A stretch of 64,000 nucleotides of DNA, from the NCBI GenBank assembly GCA_021462855.1, contig JAJTXQ010000014.1, forward strand, positions 168,042 through 232,041, given 5' to 3'. Under the pieces are notes generated by a model. The model was not told the DNA's origin, searched no databases, and worked only from the letters and a program-made list of their open reading frames with translations. Both the position numbers and the translations under genes were made by a program. How positions within the stretch are numbered: position 1 is the stretch's first letter; each line of letters begins with the position of its first letter. This document shows positions 20,095 to 28,517 of this stretch, one piece after another. This stretch comes from Dehalococcoidia bacterium (GTDB taxonomy: Bacteria; Chloroflexota; Dehalococcoidia; DSTF01; JACRBR01).

Positions 20095-20565
20095 ATGGGG
20101 CGGAATGGGCCGAACGGCCCTTGCGCAGGGGGGCATCTGCCGAGCGAACGACTACAACGCCAGATCGACCGCGTCCTCGATGAGGCAGAGGCTGCCCTCG
20201 GCGCGCGCGAGTGGGCGCGCGTCCACGAGTTGTCGCGTGACGCGCTCGCCCTCGATCCCGAGAACGCCGACGCCCGGGCGTTTCTTGATGCCGCACTGCG
20301 CGCGATGCAGGGATCGCCGCCGCCGCCGGATCCCCGGTCCGCAACCGACGCGACACCAACGCGGCGCCGCTTCCACTCAATCCGAGAACATCGGAATGCC
20401 AATCTCGTCCGTGAACTGCAGCGGGACAAACGGCGCGGGCTACTCGCGACGCCCTTGTGTCAGCTTTCGAGTTGGACGCCACTCCAGTTGTGCGTCGAGC
20501 CCAACCTCCACCCATGCGTGGAGGCAGCGACGAGTTACGAGACAGACGGGAGGTCGCGATGGTGA
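20095..20565 (+). pseudogene. Truncated N-terminal fragment of a multidomain signalling protein
   Basis: Residues 18-75 of this frame (LQRQIDRVLDEAEAALGARE, VHELSRDALALDPENADARA) form a TPR-like helical pair. It resembles the segment that precedes kinase or AAA/cyclase domains in some bacterial multidomain regulators; this is from memory. After about residue 85 the frame loses any recognisable pattern and runs into the start of the methyltransferase gene. No downstream kinase, AAA or cyclase domain follows. I read it as a deletion remnant, or possibly a small stand-alone helical protein. Confidence 0.4.
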
Positions 20566-21341
20566 ATCCAGTGGTAGCAGCCAAGGTTGACCGCGAACGT
20601 CTCCGGCAACAGATCACCGACAAGTACACCGATGTCGCGCTGGAGCCCGCGAAGGGCTTCCACTTCCACACGGGCCGGCCGCTCGCAGACATGCTGGGAT
20701 ACGACGGCACTGCCATCGACACGCTGCCGGCCGGGACCGTGGAGTCGTTCGCCGGCACCGGCAACCCATTCTCAATGGGAGCGCTGAAGCCGGGAGAGAC
20801 CGTCCTCGACATCGGCTGTGGTGCCGGTTTCGACACGCTGCAGGCGGCGCAACAGGTCGGCGCGGCCGGGCGCGTCGTCGGCGTCGACATGACCGGCGCG
20901 ATGCGCGAGAAGACGATCGCCGGTGCGCGAGAACTCGGTCTGGCCAACGTTGAAGTGCGGCACGGCTTCATGGAAGAGCTGCCCGTCGATGACGCCAGCA
21001 TCGACGTCGTCATCAGCAATGGCGTGATCAATCTCACGCCCGACAAGGTCGGCGTCATGCGTGAGGTTTTCCGCGTGCTCAAGCCGGGCGGGCGGTTCCA
21101 GATCGGCGACATCATCGTCCATAAGGAAGTGCCGCAGGACGCGAAAGACGACATCGACCTCTGGTCCGGTTGAATTGCCGGTGCTCTGCTGTATGCAGAG
21201 TGGAACTGGGTCTTGGACCATGTTGGCTTCCGCGACGTTCGCTGGGGTCGCGAAGTCGACGTGTTCTCCGGCTCCGGTCACGAGTCCGATGCGAAGGATT
21301 TCGACACACGGGGCGTCACGTTCACCGCACGCAAGCCATGA
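20559..21341 (+). CDS. ArsM-like SAM methyltransferase with in-frame TGA (candidate selenoprotein)
   Basis: ATG 20559 has GGGAGGT 5 bases upstream. Visible blocks are FHFHTGRPLADMLGYD, ESFAGTGNPFSMG, motif I VLDIGCGAGFDTLQAA, VGVDMTGAM, SNGVINLTPDKVGVM and FRVLKPGGRFQIGDI, as in arsenite-methyltransferase relatives. At codon 205 (21171-21173) a TGA replaces the Cys of the conserved LWxGC-I-GAL block. The same frame then continues 55 codons with IAGALLYAEWNWVLDHVGF and ends TRGVTFTARKP, the expected family C-terminus. A hairpin with SECIS geometry follows the TGA at once. Read with selenocysteine, the protein is 260 residues; terminated, 204. The other Cys usual in the SNxVINL stretch is absent. 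The substrate may be arsenite or another metalloid or thiol. Confidence 0.75.
21182..21202 (+). promoter_or_regulatory. Candidate bacterial SECIS element
   Basis: CTCTGC (21184-21189) pairs fully with GCAGAG (21195-21200) around a five-base loop TGTAT whose second base is G. Two further wobble pairs extend the stem to 8. The loop begins 16 bases after the in-frame TGA. A stem directly 3' of UGA, a small loop with an early G and about 16-37 bases of spacing are what SelB-dependent bacterial SECIS elements show. Confidence 0.65.
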
Positions 21342-27300: not shown

Positions 27301-28296
27301 ATGCCCACGATGACGAAACGCGATCGCGTCCGCGCCACGATTGCAGGCGAGCCGACCGACCGGCCCCCGTTCGCGCTGTGGGGGCATGACTTTCTGCGAG
27401 AATGGTCGCCCGAAGACCTCGTCGCGCAGACGCTCGAGGCCTACCGCGCCGACGGCTGGGACATCATCAAGTTCAATCCACGCTGGACGTACTTCGCGGA
27501 ACATTGGGGAAACACGTATGAACGTCCGACCGAACAACGCATGCCGCGCCTCCGGACGGCAGTCGTCCATTCGACTCGCGATCTCGCCAACCTGGCACCC
27601 GTCGACGGACGATCAGGCGTGTTCGCGGAGCACCTGGTGGCGTTGCGGGCAATCATTGATGCGGTCGGCCAAGAGGTCGATGTTGTCCAGACGATCTTCT
27701 CGCCGCTGGCCGTTGCCGGGTTGCTCTGCGGTCCGGATGCGGGCGTGCGACAACTCGCCGCGGAGGACCCGGCTGCTGCGCACCACGCGCTCGCGGCCCT
27801 CACCGTAACACTCATCGAATACGCCCGGGCGTCGCTCGCGGCCGGCGCCAGCGGCATCTTCTACGCGCCGCTGTTCTGGGCGAGCTACGACGTCAGCGAC
27901 GATGCATTCTACGCGGAGTTTGGCCGCCGTTACGATCTCCAGGTGCTCGATGCGGTGCGCGACGCACCATGGAACATCCTGCACGTCTGCCGTGACCACA
28001 ACATGCTGTACGCGTTGTTGGACTATCCGGTGGCGGCGTTCAACTGGGCCGACCGCGGCGATGGTAATCCTACGCTTGCGGACGCGCGCAGTCGCAGCGC
28101 CAAGGCGATGATGGGCGGCATCGATCATGCTCGCCTGCACACCATGACACCGGAGGAGGTCCGCGCGCAGGCACGAGCGACCATCGCGATTGGCAGGGGC
28201 GTGTTCGTCACAGGAGGGTGTGGCGTTCCGCCACAGACGCCACAGGCGAACCGGGACGCGCTCCGGGCAGTCTGCGAGGAAGCAGCCTCGGGGTGA
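27301..28296 (+). CDS. Uroporphyrinogen decarboxylase-family (URO-D) protein
   Basis: 331 residues of the URO-D/MtaA superfamily TIM barrel: TKRDRVRATIAGEPTDRPPF at the N-terminus, DGWDIIKFNPRW, VVQTIFSPLAVAG and ILHVCRDHNMLYALLDYPVAAFNW. True HemE motifs are not clear, and members beside catabolic genes are usually corrinoid-linked methyltransferases or uncharacterised. I see no Cys/His zinc triad of MtaA type beyond HVC, so the reaction is open. ATG 27301 has GGGAGG 7 bases upstream. It ends about 220 bases before the integrated element. Confidence 0.75.
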   Translation: MPTMTKRDRVRATIAGEPTDRPPFALWGHDFLREWSPEDLVAQTLEAYRADGWDIIKFNPRWTYFAEHWGNTYERPTEQRMPRLRTAVVHSTRDLANLAPVDGRSGVFAEHLVALRAIIDAVGQEVDVVQTIFSPLAVAGLLCGPDAGVRQLAAEDPAAAHHALAALTVTLIEYARASLAAGASGIFYAPLFWASYDVSDDAFYAEFGRRYDLQVLDAVRDAPWNILHVCRDHNMLYALLDYPVAAFNWADRGDGNPTLADARSRSAKAMMGGIDHARLHTMTPEEVRAQARATIAIGRGVFVTGGCGVPPQTPQANRDALRAVCEEAASG

Positions 28297-28517
28297 TCAA
28301 CGATGGATTGGCGCCACGCCCGGACGATTCATCGCCACCGCTGCGGCGGCCGTGCGGGCTCGCCCGTGCGTGTGGAATGCGACCGCCACGAACGGCGCCG
28401 GCCGGCGCTGGGCAGCCGATCGAGAACACCGTACGGTGACGTGGCCGTATGGTGACGTGGAAGGAATCGCCGGACACAGAGCGGGCTCTCAGGGGGGCCG
28501 TTCCAGATTCAAAACAG

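Follow-up and report, generated by a model that had tools for sequence, protein, structure and literature searches.

The DNA analysed here, a 64,000-nucleotide stretch from a Dehalococcoidia bacterium (the window), carries at 20559-21341 a gene whose product we regard, with high confidence from its sequence and structure model, as a selenocysteine (Sec)-decoded methyltransferase of the ArsM fold. Codon 205 of this gene, a UGA, is almost certainly a Sec codon, to judge from the comparison of sequences. The enzyme is most likely a Sec-dependent methyltransferase whose substrate, a soft metalloid or chalcogen, is bound by this one Sec, perhaps together with histidine. Sec decoding, the ArsM fold and the position of the Sec are the parts of this reading established by computation; the substrate, which we infer, is far less sure than the decoding. 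The features on which the argument turns are these:

20548..20553, + strand: Shine-Dalgarno-like GGGAGG, 5 nt upstream of the ATG (read from the sequence)
20559..21341, + strand: candidate selenoprotein gene encoding a 260-residue ArsM-like SAM-dependent methyltransferase with Sec at residue 205 (sequence, profiles and structure model)
20661..20675, + strand: codons of the H35-F-H-T-G39 motif (family alignments)
20757..20759, + strand: codon of Thr67, which aligns with CmArsM Cys72; the motif reads GTGNP here and GCGNP in canonical ArsM (alignments)
21021..21023, + strand: codon of Gly155, which aligns with CmArsM Cys174; the motif reads SNGVINL here and SNCVINL in canonical ArsM (alignments)
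21171..21173, + strand: Sec-UGA codon 205 within a UxxG motif (UIAG), at the position of CmArsM Cys224 and human AS3MT Cys206 (alignments)
21184..21200, + strand: candidate bacterial SECIS hairpin with stem CTCTGC/GCAGAG and loop UGUAU (folding and covariation)

The reading frame starts with ATG at 20559, contains one internal in-frame TGA (21171-21173) and continues for 55 further codons to a TGA stop at 21339-21341, as an earlier note made from the sequence had described. Downstream of codon 205, past the SECIS, divergence at the three codon positions is 0.23/0.17/0.52, against 0.20/0.16/0.47 upstream. Because the two patterns are alike, the part of the gene 3' of the TGA is under selection at the protein level.

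Ten bases separate the TGA from the hairpin, whose arms (21184-21189 and 21195-21200) form a perfect 6-bp stem closing the loop TGTAT (21190-21194), 16 nt past the TGA. The fold of the 42-nt stretch has an energy of -17.2 kcal/mol, with a z of -3.1 relative to dinucleotide shuffles. The bSECIS model describes a loop of 3-9 nt with a G within loop positions 1-2, a stem of 4-16 bp, an MFE <= -7.5 and a distance of 16-37 nt from the UGA (PMC13188914), and the hairpin after codon 205 agrees with it throughout (6 bp, 5-nt loop, G at loop position 2, 16 nt). The earlier note had pointed to this stem and its G-containing five-base loop at +16; both are present, and dozens of homologues repeat the hairpin, with compensatory changes.

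The gene has TGA at this codon in 18 of 99 related genomes, counting the window's own, and TGC in two. A sample of 400 genomes from the phylum gave matches in 30, and the new loci that a motif script could place comprise 21 with TGA and the SNG motif and one with TGT. TGA also occupies this position in three genomes of other phyla, which are Alphaproteobacteria, Actinomycetota and Bryobacterales MAGs, and in a more distant relative from Planctomycetota; Cys stands there instead in one Proteobacteria MAG and in Aromatoleum tolulyticum. The 18, 21 and 3 loci from related genomes, phylum sample and other phyla together make up 42 homologous TGA loci. Random stops in close relatives, which the earlier note had named as the mark of an ordinary pseudogene, were not what we found: the TGA copies inspected have their TGA at codon 205, and the rest have Cys. 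The Aromatoleum gene (L064:6001-6714; SNGVLNL, WAECVVGA) provides a Cys relative of the clade in a cultured organism.

Across the 42 loci, which represent 40 distinct TGA sequences, the stem columns are paired in 94% of cells and 18 cells carry compensatory double changes; neither figure was matched in any of 2000 column shuffles. In the Cys genes the same columns are paired in 40% of cells, not above shuffles, and the hairpin is absent. Covariation among TGA genes and loss of the hairpin in Cys homologues thus support a SECIS function, as far as comparative sequence analysis can address it.

The earlier note had proposed a search for Sec machinery, whose absence would have spoken against its claim, and the window's own genome (3.0 Mb, 97.5% complete) contains all four components sought: SelA (518 bits), SelB (310 bits, above cut-off), SelD (360 bits, above cut-off) and tRNA-Sec (71 bits, anticodon TCA by ARAGORN). 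It follows from this set that UGA is very probably read as Sec in this organism. The selD gene of this genome (contig C35; L055:1531-1533) itself has an in-frame TGA, in a CAGU motif that we take to be the usual catalytic Cys/Sec site, and its product is, on its sequence, probably a selenoprotein.

Full-length SelA was found in 14 of the 18 related genomes with a TGA gene. Two others retain parts of the machinery, a SelA fragment and tRNA-Sec in G013 and tRNA-Sec in G057, and in the MAGs G011 and G015 neither SelA nor tRNA-Sec scored over cut-off, perhaps because these draft assemblies are incomplete. SelA was undetected in both genomes of the family with a Cys version of the gene, G003, whose best tRNA-Sec match of 47.4 bits lies just over the cut-off of 47 with background at 45-46, and G005, which is only 72% complete, and also in G002, which shares its genus with G005. 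In the tree, the two Cys genes (L028 and L031) are nested within the TGA clade next to the window's gene. This suggests that Sec was exchanged for Cys after loss of the pathway, a direction of change that is inferred from the nesting.

By itself, a single internal stop seen in one assembly would normally point to a pseudogene, and a sequencing error at codon 205 is a further possible origin. Recurrence of the codon in 42 loci, the covarying SECIS, constraint downstream and a full Sec machinery make either origin extremely improbable. Scarcely more credible is decoding of the TGA as another amino acid, or read-through that inserts no Sec. Read-through stops exist, but nothing specific points to one here, and the sister genes have Cys at the site, the SECIS covaries, SelA, SelB and tRNA-Sec are present and the gene's own terminal stop is also TGA.

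The predicted protein belongs to the class I SAM-dependent methyltransferases by both Pfam domain and Rossmann-type fold, with matches above cut-off to PF13847 (113 bits) and PF08241 (73.5 bits). The nearest solved structures by sequence (phmmer) are the ArsM/AS3MT entries 5evj, 5eg5, 4kw7 and 4fr0. An AF2 model of the product has a pLDDT of 94.7, and its nearest structure in Foldseek is 4fr0 (CmArsM), which is also the best PDB match in structural alignment (VIA), with Z 27.5 compared with about 21-22 for non-ArsM methyltransferases. Fold and motif together predict that the protein transfers methyl groups from SAM.

Conserved ArsM cysteines include CmArsM residues 72, 174 and 224, and residue 44 is one of four conserved Cys positions (PMC5552862). 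At the first three of these the window protein has Thr67, Gly155 and Sec205, and replacement of Cys72 and Cys174 by Thr and Gly holds family-wide. Alignment of Sec205 with CmArsM Cys224 (human AS3MT Cys206) bears out the earlier note's placement of codon 205 at a Cys position of ArsM relatives, and Gly155 accounts for the Cys that it had found missing from SNCVINL. Its suggestion that substrate or chemistry may differ is strengthened, the Cys72 equivalent being gone besides that of Cys174. An HxHTG motif (H35-F-H-T-G39) hardly varies across the single-chalcogen Sec/Cys clade, and the canonical ArsM proteins in the set compared lack it. Its conserved histidines, H35 and H37, border the aligned stretch around CmArsM Cys44, in which model residue 35 or 36 falls on chain residue 44 (4rsr, 4kw7).

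The arsenite methyltransferase model NF008823 scores the window protein at 224.2 bits, under its cut-off of 263, and passes a canonical ArsM paralogue from the same genome at 287.5 bits. Canonical ArsM proteins, this paralogue included, form a separate group in the tree with support 100/98. The paralogue (L160; G000:C76:19126-19650) is a Cys protein with the motifs GCGNP, SNCVINL and AGCAAGA.

On our reading, SelB and tRNA-Sec decode UGA205 as Sec, directed by the hairpin immediately 3' of it. In this lineage the ligands Cys72 and Cys174 have been lost, and a single chalcogen, Sec or in some relatives Cys, is kept at the Cys224 site; the sequences suggest that Sec here replaces the sole chalcogen ligand retained by the clade's ArsM-fold enzymes. 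The Sec selenolate, possibly with His35 and His37, may bind the substrate, a soft metalloid or chalcogen for which trivalent arsenic, a methylated arsenical or a selenium or sulfur species are candidates. The bound substrate would then be presented to SAM, and its methylation may serve to detoxify it.

Arsenicals and sulfur/selenium species are rated about equally as substrates, and each assignment is tentative. The protein may be an arsenic methyltransferase of a single-chalcogen type, in which Sec and His stand in for three Cys and which is perhaps specialized for methylated arsenicals. Its fold and best matches are those of ArsM, the Sec occupies the Cys224 site and the conserved H35/H37 are close to the region around Cys44. 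Human AS3MT mutants without Cys156 or without Cys206 are inactive (PMC3877260); the enzyme needs both, and the equivalent of Cys156 is absent here, which argues against ordinary arsenite methylation. Thermus TtArsM, however, methylates arsenite with one Cys plus two His (PMC8649762), so arsenic chemistry is possible despite the loss of two Cys, and the same precedent weighs against a substrate other than arsenic. The lack of an ars operon near the gene and the ArsM score under cut-off count against an arsenic enzyme, and we consider arsenic chemistry of the window protein doubtful.

The selenoprotein may, with a comparable chance that also falls short of even, methylate a reactive form of sulfur or selenium (persulfide, sulfide or selenide) or some other soft electrophile. 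Loss of two of the three arsenic-binding Cys and the presence of a separate canonical ArsM, above the NCBI cut-off, in the same genome favor such a substrate, as does gene context in relatives, whose recurrent neighbors are an ArsR-rhodanese regulator, an MBL-rhodanese protein, DUF4395, an MFS transporter, DsrE and OsmC. At least one sulfur-linked neighbor (ArsR-rhodanese, MBL-rhodanese, DsrE, DUF4395 or OsmC) occurs in 11 of 25 clade loci and in none of 20 loci with canonical ArsM, most of which come from the same genomes. This contrast is indicative only and biased towards the clade because the neighbor probes were chosen from the clade's own loci. The window gene itself is flanked by a BTAD-type regulator and sugar- or polysaccharide-related genes; no rhodanese, DsrE, MBL-rhodanese or OsmC gene lies near it, and a search of its genome for the ArsR-rhodanese regulator gave no match, both of which tell against a non-arsenic substrate. 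A fuller proposal holds that these proteins form a stand-alone, widespread Sec methyltransferase family, which diverged from ArsM by losing two of the three arsenic-binding Cys, with the one Sec as substrate-binding residue and a role in reactive sulfur/selenium (persulfide) metabolism, not arsenic detoxification; taken jointly, these elements are rather unlikely. Six relatives (L142, L143, L146, L149, L151 and L155) have a cluster of ArsR-rhodanese, DUF4395, MFS transporter and MBL-rhodanese genes beside the methyltransferase, with not every member at each locus.

Sec in an ArsM-type methyltransferase is an already known kind of protein. A Sec arsenite methyltransferase with UxxG (PRK11873/NF008823) is on record, credited by PMC13188914 to Fomenko et al. 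2007, and one is listed in the GOS selenoproteome (PMC2398784); the deep-Sep paper (PMC12013277) does not mention methyltransferases. Like the catalogued form, the window protein is an ArsM-like methyltransferase with Sec in UxxG (here UIAG), but it scores 224 bits against that family's cut-off of 263 and lacks Cys72 and Cys174. NF041537 (ArsM_AhpD_UU), NF041536 (ArsM_DUF2284_UU) and NF047649 (MTase_UXPK_star) are described as double selenoproteins (Haft and Tolstoy 2025, cited in PMC13188914) and have the same UxxG Sec site. The best NCBIfam matches of the window protein are to the N-terminal methyltransferase halves of NF041537 (236.5 bits) and NF041536 (229 bits). Unlike these fusions, its methyltransferase stands alone with one Sec and scores far under the model cut-offs: NF041537, with its fused AhpD, requires >510 bits and its alignment to the window protein extends to position 249 of the model's 345, and NF047649 gives 213.7 bits against a cut-off of 460. 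No ArsM_AhpD fusion (NF041537) exceeded the cut-off in the 400 genomes of the phylum sample.

CmArsM and human AS3MT resemble the window protein in fold (Z 27.5 and 20.6) and in the Cys224/Cys206 position, but the window protein has Sec for Cys, a shorter C-terminus and neither of the other two As-binding Cys. With TtArsM it shares a single chalcogen residue and candidate His ligands; that likeness is drawn by description only, and TtArsM is a cysteine protein whose one Cys, residue 77, lies in the N-terminal part (PMC8649762). The variant is thus set apart by loss of the other As ligands, its stand-alone form and the association with sulfur genes in relatives, the published Sec forms having been compared by description only.

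Annotation that takes TGA as a stop cuts such genes at residue 204, and the rest could be called ArsM; the clade may also give rise to false arsM calls when arsenic cycling is surveyed. The window gene and its counterparts in G003 and G005 are natural Sec/Cys pairs in close genomes, offering a test of the benefit of selenium to a methyltransferase.

Another methyltransferase match with a TGA in the same genome (G000:C13:12440-12709) was rejected as a selenoprotein because several stops follow the TGA; it has the look of a normal gene end or of an extension in the wrong frame. One relative (L156; G041:C15:26969-27733 and 27789-28403) has a tandem pair of TGA-containing methyltransferases, the second of which reads VNGIFNL and lacks the HxHTG motif. 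L050 and L072 are likewise of this VNG/CNG type, and the sequences of the three hint at a further Sec subfamily.
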